Source: a virus. From it: DNA of 36,069 bases. The notes beneath the pieces were generated by a model. That model did not search any database and was not told where the DNA came from. It saw nothing but the letters and a program-made list of their open reading frames with translations. This document shows positions 1,694 to 28,762 of the stretch, one piece after another. How positions within the stretch are numbered: the stretch's first letter is position 1; each line of letters opens with the position of its first letter. The DNA is taken from positions 1 to 36,069 of the IMG/VR virus record IMGVR_UViG_3300015373_000019; one strand, 5' to 3'. A program made the translations under genes and the position numbers.

Positions 1694-1912
1694 ATGACCC
1701 TGTGTACTATCTGTCATGACCCATATACGCCAGATGCCAGTCTGCCGAGCGAGCTGTGCCCCGAGTGCCACCGGCTCAATTTCCACGGCGCCCAACCGCC
1801 CCTGGGCTGGGCCGAGGTGGAGGCCGCAGCGCTCACCCTGACGCCGCGTCAGGTGCAGGCCCTGGCCCGCATCACGGCGAGACAGCGGGCGCGGCAGGAG
1901 GAGGAGCCGTGA
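1694..1912 (+). CDS. small zinc-ribbon protein, function unknown
   Basis: A protein of 72 aa with two cysteine pairs (CTICHDPY and CPECH) forming a probable zinc ribbon at residues ~4-25. A helical Ala/Arg-rich C-terminus follows (LTPRQVQALARITARQRAR). I placed the start at 1694 because GGAGGG lies seven bases upstream; the frame is open further upstream without an SD. The stop overlaps the GTG start of the methyltransferase (GTGA), and the final Glu-rich codons supply that gene's SD, so the two are translationally coupled. Function is not recognisable; nucleic-acid or protein binding is a guess from the zinc ribbon. Confidence 0.7.
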   Translation: MTLCTICHDPYTPDASLPSELCPECHRLNFHGAQPPLGWAEVEAAALTLTPRQVQALARITARQRARQEEEP

Positions 1913-3330
1913 GTGTCCTGCTCCTCCAGGGCGATGCGCGCCAGATCCCGCTACTGGACGGGAGCGTGCATTGCGTGGTCACGTCACCGCCCTACTATGG
2001 GCTGCGTGACTATGCTACGGGAGCATGGTACGGCGGCGATCCGGCCTGCCTACATTCCCCGGCTGACACGCCACAGCAGCGTGGGCTTGCCTCAAGTACC
2101 CTCGGTGGCGGGAAGGGCACGACCGGCCACCAGCGCGAGGGCTTTCGTGGAACCTGCCCACGCTGCGGCGCCGTACGGGTCGATGCCCAGATAGGATTGG
2201 AGAAACAGGCGGATTGCCTCGCCTGGGCACGCCAGGAGCCCCCGTGTGCGGCGTGTTGGGTGTGCGCCATGCGGGCGGTGTTCGCAGAGGTGCATCGCGT
2301 GCTGGTGCCCACGGGCGTGATGTTCGTCAACGTCGGAGACGCCTACACGAGCGGCAACCGCGTCGGCCACGGCACGCGCGTGGGCTATAAACAGCAGACC
2401 AATCGCGGCATGAATGGCACGAGCGATCCACCACGCGCCCCACAACCGCCAGGGCTACGCGAGAAGAATCTGCTGGGCTTGCCCTGGAGGTTGGCGCTGG
2501 CGCTGCAAGCGGATGGCTTTATCCTGCGGTCAGAAATTATCTGGCACAAGCTCAACCCCATGCCCGAGAGCGTGCAGGACCGGCCCACACGGGCACATGA
2601 GCAGGTGTTCCTGTTCAGTAAGCAAGGGCGCTACTACTTCGATATGGAGGCCATCCGCGAGCCCGCAACGATGCGGCCCCAAGCCAGGCTGACGCCCCAG
2701 CCGCGCCGTGAGAGACAACATGCCGCCGATGGGTGGGCCGAGCCGCGCCTGTTACGTGAGACGCCCATGCTTGATGGCAACCCCACTGGCCGCGCCATGC
2801 GCAGCGTCCTCTCCCTCGCCAGTGAGCCCCTGAGTATGAGCCACTTTGCGACCTTCCCGACCGCCCTGGTGCGCCGCTGCCTCCTGGCTGGGGCGCCATC
2901 CGCCGTGTGCCGGGAATGTGGGGCGCCATGGGTACGTGACATCAGCGCTACGTATACCCCATCGACACGCGGGACGGTGGGCAAAATGATTGAACGTAAC
3001 GGTGAGCACATTACCCCAATGGCTGGGCTGCCACGTATGAACAAGTACGTCACCACTACCGGCTTTTCCCCCGCATGCACCTGCACCGCCCCCACGCAGC
3101 CTGCAACCGTCTTCGACCCCTTCTGCGGCTCCGGCACGGTGCCTCTTGTTGCCCGCGAGTTGGGCCATCATGGCGTAGGGCTGGACCTCAGCTACGCATA
3201 CCTGCACGACATCGCCCGCGAGCGGCTTGACCTGGCCAGGCTGGCCCGCTGGAGCGGCCAGGCCACGCCAGACGCCACGCGCGAGTATACCGACTTACCC
3301 CTCTTTGCCCTCACGGAGGACACCCCATGA
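1909..3330 (+). CDS. DNA methyltransferase, beta class (N4-cytosine/N6-adenine type)
   Basis: A protein of 473 aa. The catalytic motif TSPPYYGLRDY is at residues ~25-35, and the AdoMet-binding motif FDPFCGSGTV is near residue 402, close to the C-terminus. Catalytic motif first and AdoMet motif last is the beta-class order. SPPY is more usual for N4-cytosine than N6-adenine enzymes, but the base cannot be settled by eye. Between the motifs are several cysteine pairs (CPRCG, CAACWVC, CRECG, CTC) that probably bind zinc. There is no adjacent cognate restriction enzyme, so a protective solitary phage methyltransferase is likely. The start is GTG at 1909, coupled to the upstream gene. The last codons (TEDTP) hold the SD for the next gene, which starts in an ATGA overlap. 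Confidence 0.92.
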   Translation: MSVLLLQGDARQIPLLDGSVHCVVTSPPYYGLRDYATGAWYGGDPACLHSPADTPQQRGLASSTLGGGKGTTGHQREGFRGTCPRCGAVRVDAQIGLEKQADCLAWARQEPPCAACWVCAMRAVFAEVHRVLVPTGVMFVNVGDAYTSGNRVGHGTRVGYKQQTNRGMNGTSDPPRAPQPPGLREKNLLGLPWRLALALQADGFILRSEIIWHKLNPMPESVQDRPTRAHEQVFLFSKQGRYYFDMEAIREPATMRPQARLTPQPRRERQHAADGWAEPRLLRETPMLDGNPTGRAMRSVLSLASEPLSMSHFATFPTALVRRCLLAGAPSAVCRECGAPWVRDISATYTPSTRGTVGKMIERNGEHITPMAGLPRMNKYVTTTGFSPACTCTAPTQPATVFDPFCGSGTVPLVARELGHHGVGLDLSYAYLHDIARERLDLARLARWSGQATPDATREYTDLPLFALTEDTP

Positions 3331-7494: not shown

Positions 7495-7673
7495 TGTACA
7501 ACGTAAAAAACATAAAGAACGTGTACAGCGTGTACAACGTGTACAGAGAAGTTATGATAATCATAAAATTAGTACGGTTAATTTGTACACGTTGTACATG
7601 TCGGGGTATTTGTACCCCATGTACATTTTATTATTTGATATGAAATGAGTTACAGCCATGTACACGTTGTACA
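7495..7673. repeat. iteron-like array of TGTACA-based inverted repeats
   Basis: The unit is a 15-base near-palindrome, TGTACAACGTGTACA. Copies are at 7522-7536 and 7531-7545 (overlapping, nine-base period), and reversed exact copies at 7584-7598 and 7659-7673 (TGTACACGTTGTACA). A degenerate copy is at 7611-7625 and a half unit at 7495-7504. The plus-type copies lie on the left and the reversed ones on the right. Repeated binding sites of this kind bind initiator or regulator proteins. Confidence 0.8.
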
Positions 7674-7824: not shown

Positions 7825-9084
7825 ATGAGCTTAGCAACACCCATCAAGGAAGTACAGGATATCGTGGACAGTGCAGAAGAGCGCGAGTTCTGGACGGTGG
7901 TCAGGCTCCATGAGCGGCCGCCGTATTATTTCCCAGACGAGGGCGTGAACAATCGCCTGAACCTGGCAGCCCGCCTGGTGTACGAGGAGCATGTGCATCC
8001 GCAGAGTGATGGCTCCTTCCAGGTCGATGGATCCGGCGGCAGGCGGTATCGCGTCGAGAAGGACTGCTCATGTCCCGCCTCGCAGAAATCGAAGTCGAAA
8101 TGGTGCAAACATATGTGTGCCGTGGCCATCTACGTCGAATGGCAGCGGCGCCTCCATCCCCCTGCCCCGGTGGTCCTCGGCACGCTCCGCGCTGGAACAG
8201 CCCCCCTGCCGCCCAGCACGCCGGACGACGACGCCCTCGGCAACGGCCTCCCCCCGGACGACGAGACGCTGCCGCTGGCCTTACCACCCGTGACCGTGGA
8301 CGAACGCCTGGCACTTCCGCCCACACCGCCCCAGGAGGACCGTATGACCGAAGACCCAGTATCCTACATCCCCGAGCCCGACGAGGCCCCTGTGGCCGTG
8401 CTAGAGGCTCCAGTGCCCACCCGCGCGTTGACCCCCATCCCGCCCCAGGTCCTCGATCTGGAAGTCGCGCTCCAGACCTGGACGAGCGAGCGGGCCATTG
8501 TGCAACGCTTTTTGCGGCAGGAACTGAAGGCCAATATTGATTACTATACCTTGCGCATCGGCGGCAAAGACTCGAAGCCCTCGTTGTCGAAAGCCGGCGC
8601 GGAAAAGGTCATGGGCTGGCTCAAGCTGCAAGCATCCTTTGCCCCCGATACCGGCACCTGGGAGATGCTCGGCCGTCCCACCGATCTGGTGTGTTTCGTG
8701 TGCACCTTGCGCACCCGCAGCGGCGAGATTGTCGGCGAAGGGCGCGGCGCCCGCTCTATCAAGAAGGATGGCGGCGACGTCAACAAGGCCATTAAGATGG
8801 CGGAAAAGAGCGCCAATGTAAGTGCGGTCCTGCGCACGGGCTGCCTCAGCGACGTGTTTACCCAGGATCTTGGCGAGGATGACGAGGAACCCGCCAAGCC
8901 CACGGCCCCCGCCACGCCCTCCTCGCAGGACCTGCGCCAGCGCATCTGGCTCTACGTCACGCAGCACGATACGACCGTGAAGACCAGGGAGGATGCCGCC
9001 TCGTTTGTCCGAGCACGCACCGGTCTGGAGTTAGCGCCGGACAACTATGCGCAGATCATCGCCGCGCTGGAAGGGCACGCATGA
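7825..9084 (+). CDS. SWIM zinc finger fused to a putative phage recombination domain
   Basis: A 419-aa protein in three parts. Residues ~45-110 hold a SWIM-type zinc finger with the pattern CxC-x10-CxH (C81, C83, C94, H96). A long Pro/Asp-rich linker covers ~112-200. The region ~210-355 contains KPSLSKAGAEKVMGWL, GEGRGARSIKK, NKAIKMAEKSANVSAVLRTGCLSDVFTQD and an acidic stretch. This KPGAEK...NxAxKMAxKxAxVxAVL...SDxFTQD pattern is familiar from uncharacterised phage and plasmid proteins near replication genes, and the second half resembles ERF/Rad52-like annealing proteins. A short C-terminal helical domain ends the protein. GGAAAGAG provides the SD. ssDNA binding or annealing is an inference from the pattern and position. 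Confidence 0.7.
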   Translation: MSLATPIKEVQDIVDSAEEREFWTVVRLHERPPYYFPDEGVNNRLNLAARLVYEEHVHPQSDGSFQVDGSGGRRYRVEKDCSCPASQKSKSKWCKHMCAVAIYVEWQRRLHPPAPVVLGTLRAGTAPLPPSTPDDDALGNGLPPDDETLPLALPPVTVDERLALPPTPPQEDRMTEDPVSYIPEPDEAPVAVLEAPVPTRALTPIPPQVLDLEVALQTWTSERAIVQRFLRQELKANIDYYTLRIGGKDSKPSLSKAGAEKVMGWLKLQASFAPDTGTWEMLGRPTDLVCFVCTLRTRSGEIVGEGRGARSIKKDGGDVNKAIKMAEKSANVSAVLRTGCLSDVFTQDLGEDDEEPAKPTAPATPSSQDLRQRIWLYVTQHDTTVKTREDAASFVRARTGLELAPDNYAQIIAALEGHA

Positions 9085-9314
9085 GCGCCCCCCTCTCACC
9101 CATCGCCTTGTACACCCGGCTGACCGAGGCGTCAGCCGCGCTAGGACGCCAGATATTCCTCCTTGATACGCAGGACCAGGAGCTGGCGTCTCCCGTGGCA
9201 TCCGTCTGGGTGCACCTGGACGACCCCGTATCGAGTACGGGGCAGGCTCTGATCGAGCGCCTCCCAGCGGCGCTGGCGTGGGAGGCGCACCGCCAGATCG
9301 AGGAGGGCGCATGA
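9081..9314 (+). CDS. mini-gene 1: small helical protein, paralog of mini-gene 3
   Basis: A 77-aa protein starting in an ATGA overlap with the SWIM gene. It aligns along its whole length with the protein at 9507 (ALYTRLTEASAALGRQIFLLDTQD against ALYARMADASALLARQIQRLDTQD, then WVHLD and LIERLPAALA against LIEQLPAALA). It differs by an extra stretch, PVSSTGQA, encoded by an inserted palindromic element at 9224-9242. No membrane or catalytic features are seen and the function is unknown. Its C-terminal EEGA codons provide the SD for the next gene. Confidence 0.7.
   Translation: MSAPLSPIALYTRLTEASAALGRQIFLLDTQDQELASPVASVWVHLDDPVSSTGQALIERLPAALAWEAHRQIEEGA
9224..9242. mobile_element. small palindromic element inserted in frame in a mini-gene
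   Basis: CCCCGTA - TCGAG - TACGGGG is a perfect seven-base stem with a five-base loop, followed by CAGGCTC. It encodes most of the extra residues that distinguish mini-gene 1 from its paralog, and the reading frame is kept. A gain of eight codons relative to the paralog fits the insertion of a short REP- or RPE-like palindromic element. That it is mobile is inferred from the paralog comparison. Confidence 0.55.
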
Positions 9315-9514
9315 ACGACGTCGGCTACTGCCTCTTCACACGCCTCTGCACGGTCGGCAACGCCCTGGAGGTGCTCCGCGATACGTACACGCCGATGTCT
9401 GACGATTGGCTGATGGCGACAGAGGTGCTCGGCCTGCTGGACGAAAGTATTGATCTGCTGGTACGCTCAGACGGGCTGGACGGCGTGGACGAGGAGGAAG
9501 ACGATCATGACTGA
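9311..9514 (+). CDS. mini-gene 2: small acidic protein
   Basis: A 67-aa protein that starts in an ATGA overlap, with GAGGAGGG just before. It looks helical (NALEVLRDTYTPMSDDWLMATEVLGLLDESIDLLV) and ends in an acidic EEEDDHD tail. It overlaps the start of mini-gene 3. No family is recognised. Confidence 0.6.
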   Translation: MNDVGYCLFTRLCTVGNALEVLRDTYTPMSDDWLMATEVLGLLDESIDLLVRSDGLDGVDEEEDDHD

Positions 9515-9719
9515 ACCCCTGGCCCCCATGGCCCTCTACGCCCGGATGGCGGACGCCTCGGCCCTGCTGGCCCGGCAGATTCAGCGACTCGACACGCAGG
9601 ATCCCGCGCTGGCCGCGCCCCTCGAAGCGGCTTGGGTGCACCTCGACAACTTGATCGAACAACTCCCTGCCGCCCTCGCCCGGGACGCGCAGCGCCAGGA
9701 GCAGAAGGACACGCCATGA
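9507..9719 (+). CDS. mini-gene 3: small helical protein, paralog of mini-gene 1
   Basis: A 70-aa protein, the uninterrupted paralog of the protein at 9081. Both share ALYxRxxxASAxLxRQI..LDTQD.xLAxP and the LPAALA segment. The presence of two related copies separated by one unrelated gene shows tandem duplication within this region. It ends in QKDTP, whose codons carry the SD for the following gene. The function is unknown. Confidence 0.65.
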   Translation: MTEPLAPMALYARMADASALLARQIQRLDTQDPALAAPLEAAWVHLDNLIEQLPAALARDAQRQEQKDTP

Positions 9720-10075
9720 GTAAGCCGACCGCCGACGGCACGGGGTTTGCCGAACCAGGGCACGCCGATGACCACTGGCGGGCGCGGAAGCTCCTCCAGT
9801 GGCTGGAGTGCGTAACGGCATTAGAACAGCACAGCAATGACGCCTTAGCTGCCCTCCTCGTCGAGCATCTCTGGGCAGATGTCCCCCTTGGCACGCCGCT
9901 CAGTGATCTGGTCGCGGAAGTCACGCCACGGCTCACAGACCAAGCCGGGAAGATGCACCTGTTGCTCGCGTATCTGCTGGACCATGCCGCCCCTGCGGAT
10001 ATCGACTCCCTGCACGTGTGGCTGACTGAGCAGACGGCCCGCCTGCACCAGAAGGAGAACACACCCCATGCCTGA
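9716..10075 (+). CDS. mini-gene 4: helical protein, function unknown
   Basis: A 119-aa protein, the largest of the series, starting with ATGAGTAAG in an ATGA overlap. It is all-helical in appearance (RKLLQWLECVTALEQ, ALAALLVEHLW, MHLLLAYLLDHA) with no cysteine cluster or catalytic motif. It ends QKENTPHA, so the SD-bearing junction lies in its last codons and overlaps mini-gene 5 by eight bases. No homology is recognised. Confidence 0.65.
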   Translation: MSKPTADGTGFAEPGHADDHWRARKLLQWLECVTALEQHSNDALAALLVEHLWADVPLGTPLSDLVAEVTPRLTDQAGKMHLLLAYLLDHAAPADIDSLHVWLTEQTARLHQKENTPHA

Positions 10076-10301
10076 ACCCACCCCTGGCCAGCTCGCGTAT
10101 GCCGCGTACCGCCAACACTTCGTCGCGTATCGCAACCATACCGACGGCACGGTGATGCCGGAACCGTGGGCGTCTTTGCCGCTCCTCGTCCAGATGTGCT
10201 GGGAGGTGGCGGCTGACGCCGTGCTGGCCCAGTGCGTGCCACAGGAGACGCCGCCCCTTGTGCCCCCGCAGCCCCTGCATGCGGCAGAGGAGGAGGCATG
10301 A
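10068..10301 (+). CDS. mini-gene 5: 'PGQ-AY-AY' protein, paralog of mini-gene 9
   Basis: A 77-aa protein beginning with PTPGQLAYAAYRQHF, then a Trp-containing segment and a MCWEVAADAVLA helix. The same arrangement (TPGQVAYEAYQ, then RAWEAAAQAVLA) occurs in the 58-aa protein at 11087. This W-x-x-A-A-x-A-V ending resembles many small phage proteins of unknown function. It overlaps both neighbours and its Glu-rich end supplies the SD for mini-gene 6. Confidence 0.65.
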   Translation: MPEPTPGQLAYAAYRQHFVAYRNHTDGTVMPEPWASLPLLVQMCWEVAADAVLAQCVPQETPPLVPPQPLHAAEEEA

Positions 10302-10483
10302 CCCTGCACGACCTGATGGAGTTTCTCTGGGACGAGGCTGAGCGCGGCACCCTGAGCCGCCAGAAGATTGACCGTTGCGTACTGCTGGCCTATGAAATGG
10401 GCTACGACCTGGGGCGTGAGAATCCGCGCCAGATTGTCGTGCTGGACCTCGACCCGGACGTGCAGCAGAAGGAGACGCCATGA
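10298..10483 (+). CDS. mini-gene 6: small protein ending in DLDPDVQQKETP
   Basis: A 61-aa protein in an ATGA overlap, with AGGAGG before it. It looks helical (DLMEFLWDEAERGTLSRQKIDRCVLLAYEMG). The last 12 residues resemble the end of mini-gene 11 (DLDPDVPREDAP) and share a 19-base identical stretch there, which points to exchange of 3' ends between cassettes. The function is unknown. Confidence 0.6.
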   Translation: MTLHDLMEFLWDEAERGTLSRQKIDRCVLLAYEMGYDLGRENPRQIVVLDLDPDVQQKETP

Positions 10484-10674
10484 GCAAGGCGGAGGGCATA
10501 GCGGTCCTGGCGAGCCTGGCACACGAGATCATCCGCTGTGGGTGCTTCAGGCGTGGGCGCTACTGTCCGCACGGTCCCTGCGTGGAGGAGATCGCCAGAG
10601 CGCTCTGTCTCTCCTCCTTCACCCATGATGCACTGCGCGTGCTGTATGCCGCGCGCACCGAGGAGGAACAATGA
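10480..10674 (+). CDS. mini-gene 7: small cysteine-containing protein
   Basis: A 64-aa protein starting with ATGAGCAAG in an ATGA overlap. It carries four cysteines spaced IIRCGCFRRGRYCPHGPCVEEI, a possible small zinc site, followed by a helix (EEIARALCL). It ends TEEEQ, with GAGGAGG as the SD of the next gene. No family is recognised. Confidence 0.6.
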   Translation: MSKAEGIAVLASLAHEIIRCGCFRRGRYCPHGPCVEEIARALCLSSFTHDALRVLYAARTEEEQ

Positions 10675-10838
10675 CGCATGCCTTTGCCTGTCCCACCTGT
10701 GAGCGGAGGCTGCAGATACGGTATGGCGTGCGGCCAGCCGGGCAGGTGTGCGTCTGTGGGTGTGGTGCGCGTTGGTGGGCACAGACGGAAAAGCACTGGG
10801 TCATGATCGTGCCCCTGCCCCAGGAGGACACCCCATGA
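10671..10838 (+). CDS. mini-gene 8: zinc-ribbon mini-protein
   Basis: A 55-aa protein starting in an ATGA overlap. It has CPTC near the start and CVCGCG about twenty residues later, a compact zinc-ribbon arrangement, followed by a WVMIVPLP strand. It ends QEDTP with the standard SD-bearing junction. The overlaps on both ends, the SD and the cysteine pairs support it as real. The function is unknown. Confidence 0.6.
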   Translation: MTHAFACPTCERRLQIRYGVRPAGQVCVCGCGARWWAQTEKHWVMIVPLPQEDTP

Positions 10839-11074
10839 GTGCCTGGAACTGGACGCCCGACGAGACCGGCCTGGACGAGGACGTACGCCCCATGGGTCCC
10901 TGCGTGGACTGTGGCCGGCCGTGTCGCCCAGAAGACGCGCCGCGCTGCCTGGCCTGCACGCTGCTTGAGGAGGAGGAGACCGAGGAAACCGAGCGCTGGA
11001 ATTATCCGGAGCAGCATCATGAGGGCTCAAGAGATCATCGTGGCGATGCCAGCCGGGACGATGTGCACCGCTGA
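10835..11074 (+). CDS. mini-gene 9a: zinc-ribbon protein, paralog of mini-gene 11
   Basis: A 79-aa protein. Its first 20 residues (MSAWNWTPDETGLDEDVRPM) nearly repeat those of the gene at 11571, and the DNA is almost identical there, so the duplication is recent. CVDCGRPCRP and CLACTL form a zinc ribbon. The C-terminal part is acidic, then basic and low in complexity, unlike the paralog. It ends 12 bases before the next ATG, one of the few junctions in the train without an overlap. Confidence 0.65.
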   Translation: MSAWNWTPDETGLDEDVRPMGPCVDCGRPCRPEDAPRCLACTLLEEEETEETERWNYPEQHHEGSRDHRGDASRDDVHR

Positions 11075-11086
11075 GGAGAGGCAGCT

Positions 11087-11263
11087 ATGAGTAAGGAGAA
11101 CACCCCCGGCCAGGTGGCCTACGAGGCGTATCAGGCGAAGCTGCCTGAGCGGGCATACTTCCCGGCAGCCGCGTGGCTGGTGCTCCATCCCGCATACCAA
11201 CGCGCCTGGGAAGCCGCCGCGCAGGCCGTGCTGGCGATGCAGGAGAAGGAGGACGCGCCATGA
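11087..11263 (+). CDS. mini-gene 9: 'PGQ-AY-AY' protein, paralog of mini-gene 5
   Basis: A 58-aa protein with GAGGAGAGG upstream of ATGAGTAAG. NTPGQVAYEAYQ, an aromatic middle and a RAWEAAAQAVLAMQ helix mirror mini-gene 5 but with shorter connecting segments. It ends EKEDAP with the conserved SD junction and an ATGA overlap into the next gene. The function is unknown. Confidence 0.6.
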   Translation: MSKENTPGQVAYEAYQAKLPERAYFPAAAWLVLHPAYQRAWEAAAQAVLAMQEKEDAP

Positions 11264-11574
11264 GTAACATGAACGCCGTGTATCACGAACGCAACATGCT
11301 CGTCGCCTATCTGGCGACGTGCTATCCGTCACACCTCGCCCGCCATCCCGAGGACGATGCGTGGGATGACGATTGGCGCTGGCTGGTCTGTGTGCACACG
11401 CCTGCGGGCCAGATGATGTGGCATCTCCACGACAGCGAATACCCGCTCTTCACCTGGCTCACTCAGCAGCCCAACGATTGGGATGGCCATACGACTGCCG
11501 AGAAATATACGTGCCTCCTGGGACTGATCATGGCGCGGCGTGGAAGACGCGCACCGCAGGAGGAGAGGCCATGA
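11260..11574 (+). CDS. mini-gene 10: phage 'WDGHTT-EKY' protein
   Basis: A 104-aa protein. It is rich in Trp, His and Asp, with the stretch WDDDWRWLVCVHTPAGQMMWHLHDSEYPLF and then WDGHTTAEKYTCLLGL. The W-D-G-H-[ST]-T-x-E-K-Y motif recurs, to my recollection, in many phage-encoded proteins of unknown function, and its His/Asp residues could bind metal. It starts in an ATGA overlap and ends QEERP. No activity can be assigned. Confidence 0.65.
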   Translation: MSNMNAVYHERNMLVAYLATCYPSHLARHPEDDAWDDDWRWLVCVHTPAGQMMWHLHDSEYPLFTWLTQQPNDWDGHTTAEKYTCLLGLIMARRGRRAPQEERP

Positions 11575-11780
11575 GCGCCTGGCATTGGACGCCAGACGAG
11601 ACCGGCCTGGACGAGGACGACAGCCCCATGTGTCCCTGGTGCGGCGACCTGATCCCGCCAATGACCGGCCACCGCTGCGGGTGGGGCGATACGCTGTGTG
11701 CGGTCTGCTGGCAGCACGCCAACGAGGAGCCTCTGACGCGAGACCTCGACCCGGACGTGCCGCGGGAGGACGCGCCATGA
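11571..11780 (+). CDS. mini-gene 11: zinc-ribbon protein, paralog of mini-gene 9a
   Basis: A 69-aa protein. It has the MSAWHWTPDETGLDED N-terminus shared with the gene at 10835, then CPWCGDLIPP and CAVCW as a zinc ribbon, then a DLDPDVPREDAP tail shared with mini-gene 6. It therefore looks like a mosaic: front from one cassette type, back from another. Overlaps at both ends are of the ATGA type. Confidence 0.65.
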   Translation: MSAWHWTPDETGLDEDDSPMCPWCGDLIPPMTGHRCGWGDTLCAVCWQHANEEPLTRDLDPDVPREDAP

Positions 11781-11983
11781 CCTGGAGCCATATGACCATG
11801 GCGCAAGCGATGGCCCTGCACGAACTGCTCACGCAGCTTGGGACCGAGCACCATCGGCAGTCCTGGCGCCGCGCCCAGACGCATGACGATTATACGTGTG
11901 AGGTGGTGGACCCGACACCGGAAGAACGAGACGCCATGGCCCAGCTCATGAAACTGACGCTCCAGCAGGACGCGCCTCCCTAG
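11777..11983 (+). CDS. mini-gene 12: last gene of the early train
   Basis: A 68-aa protein in an ATGA overlap (MTWSHMTMAQAMALHELLTQLG, then VVDPTPEERDAMAQLMKLTL). Its end, QQDAPP followed by TAG, still resembles the common EDAP junction, but no gene follows on this strand. The junction sequence is left over, as if a further cassette was lost. It stops 26 bases before the stop of the convergent late gene. The function is unknown. Confidence 0.6.
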   Translation: MTWSHMTMAQAMALHELLTQLGTEHHRQSWRRAQTHDDYTCEVVDPTPEERDAMAQLMKLTLQQDAPP

Positions 11984-27922: not shown

Positions 27923-28336
27923 CTAGGCCAACGTATGCGACGGAAACAGGTTCAGGTACACGCCCGCTTGCGCGTTGCCAACGCCCACCAGCGAGCAATA
28001 CCAGCCCGGCGCTTTGTCGGCCACGGGCGCAATGCCGCCTGGCGTGCCGCCAACGATATAGACCGTGCTGGTCCCCACCCCCGCGGCGATCCCGAGCGTC
28101 AGCGTCCCCCGCGTCTGCACCCGCAGCGGTTGCTCTGGGGAGGCCGCGTGTAAGGCAACACCCACGACCTCGGCACTGTCGAGCGAGCCGTTGGCATCGG
28201 CCAGGCGCAGCCGGTTACTGAGTGAATCGAGATACATGGTCTTCCCGGCCGTGACGGTATCGCCAGAAATCCCCTGATAAAAGTCAGCATCCGCCCCAGA
28301 CAGTACGGCTGCAGGGCTTATCGTCAGTTCAGCCAT
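27923..28336 (-). CDS. capsid decoration protein B (DUF2190-like), tandem copy
   Basis: A 137-aa protein with a GADADFYQG start, AGKTMYLDSLSNRLRLADANG, then VVGVALHAASPEQPLRVQTRGTLTLG. This is the capsid-cement or DUF2190-like pattern (AGxxVYxD...RxADA...GIALH). It aligns with the protein at 28352, the product of a duplication. TAGGAG precedes the start. It probably binds the outside of the head, with the two copies perhaps occupying different sites. Confidence 0.7.
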   Translation of the reverse strand: MAELTISPAAVLSGADADFYQGISGDTVTAGKTMYLDSLSNRLRLADANGSLDSAEVVGVALHAASPEQPLRVQTRGTLTLGIAAGVGTSTVYIVGGTPGGIAPVADKAPGWYCSLVGVGNAQAGVYLNLFPSHTLA

Positions 28337-28351
28337 AACGTTCTCCTACGG

Positions 28352-28762
28352 TCATGGGACAACCTGGCCAGATGGGGCAATGGCTAATTTCAACCGATTG
28401 TTCGGAGCCCCGACCCCAATGGCGGTATAGAAGGACCCGGTAAGCACATCAGCGGCGTTGGTAATAACCCCCGCCGTAGCCCCCAGCGCATACGGCGCCC
28501 CCGCAACGGTCGTCCCACCAATGGCCAGTGTGCCAGCGATCTGGATACGCAGCGGCTGCCCATCACTGGAGCCGTGCAGAGCAATGCCCTTGACGTTGGC
28601 GGCACGCGCCCCGCCGTCGCAGTCGGCCCCGCGTAATTTGTGGTCTTGCGCGTCCTCGTAGACGGCCATGCCGGCGGTAATCGTGGCGCCGGCATAGCCC
28701 TGGAAAAAGTCCGCGTCTGCACCAGCCACAACACTGGCTGGCGTAATAGCAATGGCTGGCAT
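28352..28762 (-). CDS. capsid decoration protein A (DUF2190-like), tandem copy
   Basis: A 136-aa protein, paralog of the following gene: SVVAGADADFFQGYAGATITAGMAVYEDAQDHKLRGADCDGG against the other copy's VLSGADADFYQGISGDTVTAGKTMYLD. Then VKGIALHGSSDGQPLRIQIAGTLAIGG. The same decoration-protein pattern is present. GGAGATG lies upstream of the ATG. It sits between the connector gene and its paralog rather than beside the capsid gene. Confidence 0.7.
   Translation of the reverse strand: MPAIAITPASVVAGADADFFQGYAGATITAGMAVYEDAQDHKLRGADCDGGARAANVKGIALHGSSDGQPLRIQIAGTLAIGGTTVAGAPYALGATAGVITNAADVLTGSFYTAIGVGAPNNRLKLAIAPSGQVVP

Follow-up and report, generated by a model that had tools for sequence, protein, structure and literature searches.

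The array and its joints

This study concerns a train of thirteen very short genes, and the repeated sequence at which they are joined, in the phage genome of IMG/VR record IMGVR_UViG_3300015373_000019. The whole stretch analysed (positions 1 to 36,069, referred to here as the window) is a linear 36-kb record with a G+C content of 61%. The late genes lie on the - strand and form a siphovirus-like set (portal, capsid, tape measure and tail proteins). The early genes, on the + strand, encode a DNA methyltransferase, an AAA ATPase and a SWIM zinc-finger protein and are followed by the train (g1 to g13; Table 1), which ends at position 11983, where the convergent late operon (- strand) begins. As argued below, the genes of the train are probably accessory early genes coupled in translation, and the array that they form probably turns over as single-gene cassettes.

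A reading made from the DNA letters alone had described thirteen genes of 55-119 codons between 9081 and 11983, most of them starting inside the preceding stop codon. All thirteen genes are present, and a 4-nucleotide (nt) ATGA overlap is found at 10 of the 13 starts. The starts at 9507 (ATGACTGA) and 10068 (ATGCCTGA) have 8-nt overlaps instead, and the g10 start at 11087 lies 12 nt past the g9 stop. An open reading frame of 23 codons at 11019-11090 does reach g10 through an ATGA overlap, and this may be a very short gene standing between g9 and g10, or else a remnant. When the mini-genes were compared with Pfam and PHROGs, g11 alone was recognised, the others being unknown or marginal.

The same reading held that the 3' ends of these genes repeat one theme, so that unrelated proteins end alike. 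The C-termini that it quoted for g3, g6, g8, g10, g11 and g12 are those listed in Table 1, and it was also right that g13 ends in QQDAPP with no gene following and that the methyltransferase gene ends, at 3330, in TEDTP. A single theme, as claimed, is seen at about half of the joints, which match GGAGGAC-RCSCC-ATGA; g1 (EEGA), g2 (EDDHD), g4 (KENTPHA), g5 (EEEA), g7 (TEEEQ) and g9 (DVHR) end otherwise. The sequence at the end of the array is probably a relic joint, and the QETPP inside g5 may be a relic joint also.

Table 1. Genes, domains and joints of the array and its upstream neighbour (window coordinates unless a locus is named)
Feature	Position	Strand	Description
Joint, DNA methyltransferase gene end	3315..3330	+	GGAGGACACCCCATGA; gene 1909-3330
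SWIM gene adjoining array	7825..9084	+	SWIM zinc finger; stop overlaps g1
Central domain, window SWIM protein	8455-8886
Central domain, SWIM homologue	L142 7433-7813
Central domain, SWIM homologue	L200 6582-6953
g1	9081..9314	+	77 aa; g3 paralogue (68% DNA identity, 135 bp); ATGA start within SWIM-domain gene stop
g2	9311..9514	+	67 aa; G012, G013 and G026 carry homologues, whose three downstream neighbours all differ from that of g2
g3	9507..9719	+	70 aa; C-terminus QKDTP; 8-nt overlap with g2
Joint g3/g4	9704..9719	+	GAAGGACACGCCATGA
g4	9716..10075	+	119 aa; homologue in G004
g5	10068..10301	+	77 aa; g10 paralogue; 8-nt overlap with g4; homologues in G002, G021 (two), G024, G026 and G030
g6	10298..10483	+	61 aa; C-terminus QKETP; two homologues in G004; last 39 nt common to g12
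Joint g6/g7	10468..10483	+	GAAGGAGACGCCATGA
g7	10480..10674	+	64 aa
g8	10671..10838	+	55 aa; Cys-rich; C-terminus QEDTP
Joint g8/g9	10823..10838	+	GGAGGACACCCCATGA; left edge of g9/g12 duplicated block
g9	10835..11074	+	79 aa; g12 paralogue; homologue in G021
g10	11087..11263	+	58 aa; C-terminus EKEDAP; g5 paralogue
Joint g10/g11	11248..11263	+	GGAGGACGCGCCATGA
g11	11260..11574	+	104 aa; WDGH domain (PF25311), E 1.6e-8, above curated cut-off; C-terminus QEERP
Joint g11/g12	11559..11574	+	GGAGGAGAGGCCATGA; left edge of g9/g12 duplicated block
g12	11571..11780	+	69 aa; C-terminus REDAP; start and preceding 17 nt of joint duplicate g9 start (86%, 85 bp)
Joint g12/g13	11765..11780	+	GGAGGACGCGCCATGA; right edge of 39-nt tail common to g6
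g13	11777..11983	+	68 aa; C-terminus QQDAPP; final array gene
Probable relic joint, array end	11964..11983	+	AGCAGGACGCGCCTCCCTAG; no gene after

Joints of unrelated genes are alike beyond SD and ATGA

The 16-nt sequence GGAGGACRCSCCATGA, searched with up to 3 mismatches, has eight matches in the window, each of them at a gene junction and on the + strand; 1.8 were expected, and eight were reached in 0 of 100 shuffles. Some likeness between the encoded tails is trivial, because in the frame set by ATGA the Shine-Dalgarno sequence (SD) forces Glu/Gln/Lys-Glu near the end of the upstream protein, so that EE, QE or KE is expected there. Joints were compared over the spacer, the 7 nt from SD to ATG that are forced neither by SD nor by ATGA, and only pairs of joints with different families both upstream and downstream were scored. 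Null ends were drawn from the arrays' own internal codons, with the base at -8 (SD) and the final A kept.

Spacer identity between unrelated joints of the window was 0.472, compared with 0.303 +/- 0.029 for the codon-matched ends (0/1000; z 5.7). Across 66 array joints in 17 contigs it was 0.382 against 0.302 (0/200; z 8.2), the window showing the largest excess, whereas the 4-nt overlaps among late genes (n=23) showed none (0.286 versus 0.301). The similarity proposed by the sequence-only reading is thus greater than SD and ATGA would impose, and the joints of unrelated genes are conserved beyond what expression signals require. A special translational requirement could also account for this conservation.

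The motif was counted with the window and contigs G012-G015 left out, because those four contigs were found through the motif itself. At least 10 of its 12 positions were matched at 9/46 early 4-nt joints as against 1/191 late starts (p 2e-6), and at 7/294 other early starts, all in contigs found without the motif. The motif is therefore almost confined to early genes, chiefly to their 4-nt overlaps, with a few late copies. Identical 16-nt joints occur between unrelated gene pairs in several phages. In G014 (L216, 6657-6858) a homologue of family F17 stands behind the joint-like AGGAGGAGACGCCCTGC, in which CTG takes the place of ATG; this is either a non-standard start or a decayed gene.

Small early genes change neighbours between structurally different phages

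Some 15 contigs of related, uncultured phages were recovered by protein and motif searches of IMG/VR; their small early genes belong to families that they have in common. A scan for exact joints gave 90 stretches, at least four of them with homologues of array or neighbouring early genes; G012, G013, G014 and G015, which carry such homologues, were first found in this way. Judged by their shared late genes, the relatives fall into at least three structural types: the window with G004, G007 and G009; G014, G021, G022, G023, G030 and G031; and G001, G002, G012, G013 and G026. Array families are not confined to one type. Besides the window, the g2 family is present in G012, G013 and G026, and the g5/g10 family in G002, G021, G024, G026 and G030.

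Neighbours are lost far more readily among small early genes than among late genes. Of small early pairs at 30-50%, 50-70% and >70% protein identity, 5/51, 8/67 and 6/32 kept the same downstream family, compared with 74/136, 85/122 and 104/140 late pairs; at matched protein identity the neighbour was thus kept in 10-19% of small early pairs and in 54-74% of late pairs, although these pairs are not independent. The g2 family has four different downstream families in four phages. Order changes as well: g4 precedes g6 in the window, and its G004 homologue follows both g6-like genes. Three paralogous pairs lie within the window (g1/g3, g5/g10 and g9/g12), and further pairs are found in G004, G021 and G030.

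Two of the similarities within the window have edges at joints. The 85 bp common to g9 and g12 (86%) begin 20 nt before the ends of g8 and g11, which are unrelated genes, so that the duplicated block starts at the joint. The last 39 nt of g6 and g12 are common (87%); this likeness stops at ATGA, and the genes that follow are unrelated. On account of the neighbour turnover, the block duplicated from a joint and the shared 39-nt 3' end, the arrays are well described as cassette arrays with turnover at gene joints. In the relatives, cassettes are gained, lost, duplicated and reordered at the gene joints. Neither of the two outcomes that would have refuted the sequence-only reading, joint similarity no greater than SD and ATGA impose and an absence of exchange at the joints, was thus observed.

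Start blocks tend to go along with the gene that follows them. Where the same gene stands behind unrelated genes in different phages, the sequences are about 0.33 identical as far as -14 and 0.53 identical over -13..-8, a rise that points to the start block moving with its gene and so giving the upstream protein its tail. Likewise, spacer identity is 0.49 for the same downstream gene and 0.31 for unrelated pairs. Homologues of family F10 end in EDTP, ESVC, ETHG or EAHG, varying with the joint.

The gene upstream of the array

The central domain of the SWIM protein was modelled with low confidence (mean predicted local distance difference test score, pLDDT, of 59). A search of BFVD with this model gave RecT (3.5e-5) and Rad52/59/22 (7.9e-4), with ERF weaker, and the named viral matches near the top of that list were mostly recombination proteins. 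The PDB search with the same model gave nothing below 0.001, Pfam had no match for the central domain, and its PHROG (PHROG 10048) is of unknown function. The domain may therefore be a Rad52/RecT/Erf-like annealing domain, which is a lead suggested by the model and not an identification. A fold of the full-length SWIM protein had a pLDDT of 48 and was not used.

Among the SWIM homologues the central domain is of two different kinds: that of the window and its close relatives belongs to PHROG 10048, that of G012 and G026 to PHROG 22961. The central domain has been replaced in the latter two, and the SWIM gene is thus itself modular.

Explanations for the shared joints

If the train is a cassette array, as it probably is, the unit of exchange would be a gene together with a short start block of its own (SD, a 7-8 nt spacer and ATG); read in another frame, this block would also supply the upstream gene with its final codons and its stop. 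Since the start block is read in a second frame, unrelated proteins would gain the same tail (EDTP, EDAP or ETP); and since it unites SD, start and upstream stop, a gene joined there would be expected to be translated at once, with its neighbours still expressed. Exchange might often proceed through annealing of short shared joints, perhaps helped by the putative Rad52/RecT-like protein of the upstream gene, and selection for in-frame coupling would keep the survivors.

Several observations weigh against this interpretation or parts of it. The full theme is limited to about half of the window joints, and the spacer excess per phage is weak outside the window, with a z of 1.45 in G004 (30/300) and 0.5 in G021 (100/300). 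The turnover pairs lack independence, the difference between early and late genes being large all the same. Homology that ends near late-gene starts stops at the same places as in early genes, the two classes differing in frequency: 78% of late but 23% of early homologies run past -100. The correlation between spacer and flank similarity is weak (r 0.08 and 0.09; 1/300 and 2/300 shuffles) and, in the window alone, not significant. Finally, the annealing domain was assigned from a model with a pLDDT of 59, without PDB support or a Pfam match.

Homology edges were accordingly rejected as proof of crossover within the joint, the late-gene control showing like edges. The sequence-only reading had small early genes swapped by recombination at short shared joints. 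Its modular array and the turnover stand; crossing-over through joint homology is suggested and plausible but unproven, because early and late edges are alike and joint and flank similarity are so weakly correlated.

For the same two reasons, it is possible that genes are exchanged illegitimately and that selection then retains the products with an in-frame ribosome-binding site; we place the likelihood of this somewhat short of even. Exchange points would then be random, the survivors being those that keep an SD and a start at the end of the upstream gene; joints would be alike for two reasons, that a start block accompanies its gene and that these phages are well served by one good ribosome-binding site. 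The common shape of early and late edges, the retention of the start block with the downstream gene and the weak correlation between joint and flank are all as this explanation would have them. It fits less well with the conservation of non-SD spacer bases across unrelated genes, which is seen in early 4-nt overlaps, rarely in early non-overlapping starts and not in late overlaps. Nor does it readily explain the identical joints between unrelated gene pairs or the g9/g12 duplication that starts at a joint.

A functional start element with no part in recombination appears doubtful, though not negligible. Here GGAGGACRCSCCATGA would be an optimised coupling site or the binding site of a phage or host factor, similar to the Start-Associated Sequences (SAS) of Cluster K mycobacteriophages that are described in the next section. 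The position, one-sidedness and near-confinement of the motif to early genes fit such an element, and SAS has the same properties, a translational role having been proposed by its authors (PMC3203893). The high turnover, the duplications from joints and the 39-nt shared 3' tail would be left unexplained, and the element is loose, many array genes being without it.

Equally tentative, and in our judgement less likely than not, is a stronger form of the cassette interpretation, in which the joint is a dedicated exchange element that combines upstream stop, ribosome-binding site, start and recombination homology. A phage-coded annealing protein would there swap single accessory genes between unrelated phages with expression kept, making a gene-capture array without an integrase. 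The probabilities given to the cassette array and to its rivals overlap because a cassette array leaves room both for illegitimate exchange and for the joint having a role in translation.

Recent tandem duplication within one lineage is largely excluded as the sole cause of the shared joints: it would account for the three paralogous pairs of the window, but only joints that differ in family both upstream and downstream were scored against each other, and other phages have the same joints between other genes. Selection on a common C-terminal peptide (EDTP/EDAP), for instance for stability or partner binding, is most improbable of all and was set aside, because the tail, although unrelated proteins do end alike, tracks the type of joint (EDTP/EDAP at ATGA, ETHG/DTHA at 8-nt overlaps, ESVC before ATGTTAA) and the ends of the F10 homologues vary with the start of the next gene.

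Whether mosaic phage genomes arise by random joining and selection or by homology at short boundaries is an old open question, and clear cases of boundary-homology assembly are few. Each genome here offers many joints, their sequence is defined, and gene families are common to at least three structural types of phage, so that breakpoints can be counted and the role of the joint can be tested. Common C-terminal tails of unrelated phage proteins, moreover, can be by-products of the start signal of the next gene.

Relation to known systems

Boundary sequences at the gene junctions of lambdoid phages (Susskind and Botstein 1978; Clark et al. 2001, for HK620; both cited in PMC3029335) were proposed as homologous recombination sites that join mosaic modules. 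The likeness lies in a short conserved sequence at gene junctions. Unlike those boundaries, the array joint itself consists of the SD, the start and the stop of the upstream gene, is repeated many times within one array and is common to phages with unrelated structural modules, and its role in recombination is putative. Genes are exchanged at junctions between relatives, as with boundary sequences, neighbour turnover being far above that of late genes. As for crossover inside the joint, the g9/g12 and g6/g12 edges lie at joints, and like edges are found in late genes.

The nearest match in position and character appears to be SAS of Cluster K mycobacteriophages, a short repeat with AGGAG that lies 3-7 nt before the starts of non-structural genes of many families, is conserved beyond pairing with rRNA and is confined to the non-structural part of the genome (PMC3203893). 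Its consensus, GGGATAGGAGCCC, differs from the array joint and, at up to 2 mismatches, has 0 matches in the window. The joint motif, too, stands almost only before early genes, with a few late copies, yet it reaches the start codon: unlike SAS, the array repeat runs on into the ATGA overlap, where it shapes how the upstream protein ends.

Common 18-residue C-termini of gp67 and gp68 of Island3 were ascribed to recombination between repeats of about 50 bp (PMC3029335). There, as here, unrelated neighbouring proteins share a C-terminal tail; Island3 has a single such pair, whereas the array has many genes and shorter joints. Comparison with integrons is by analogy only, no integrase being present among the scanned window genes, although no search was aimed at an integrase or attC. 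The PeSL mobile regulatory cassettes of T4-type phages are said to be small gene cassettes shuffled with a shared regulatory joint. Their joints reportedly consist of promoter and stem-loop elements between genes, whereas the array joint is a translational overlap. The array differs from these systems in that stop, SD and start are fused in one repeated joint, throughout a long array and in structurally different phages.

Other features of the window

Neither an Rfam match nor a tRNA was found within the window. Two scans of genome contigs for a host gave no relative with the SWIM-gene alignment and none with the F10 family. In the annotated phage collection the SWIM gene was without a match, and the relatives of the portal protein all had <60% identity.

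Of the 13 TGTACA palindromes in the window (4.3 expected), nine are gathered at 7495-7673, in the AT-rich gap that separates the SWIM gene from the AAA ATPase gene; several of them are spaced 9 nt apart. This cluster is iteron- or operator-like, and no such clustering was seen in 16 related contigs. In the late operon, at 27923-28762, two neighbouring genes of 136-137 aa (family 27) are similar to one another, and this family is duplicated in G004 too.

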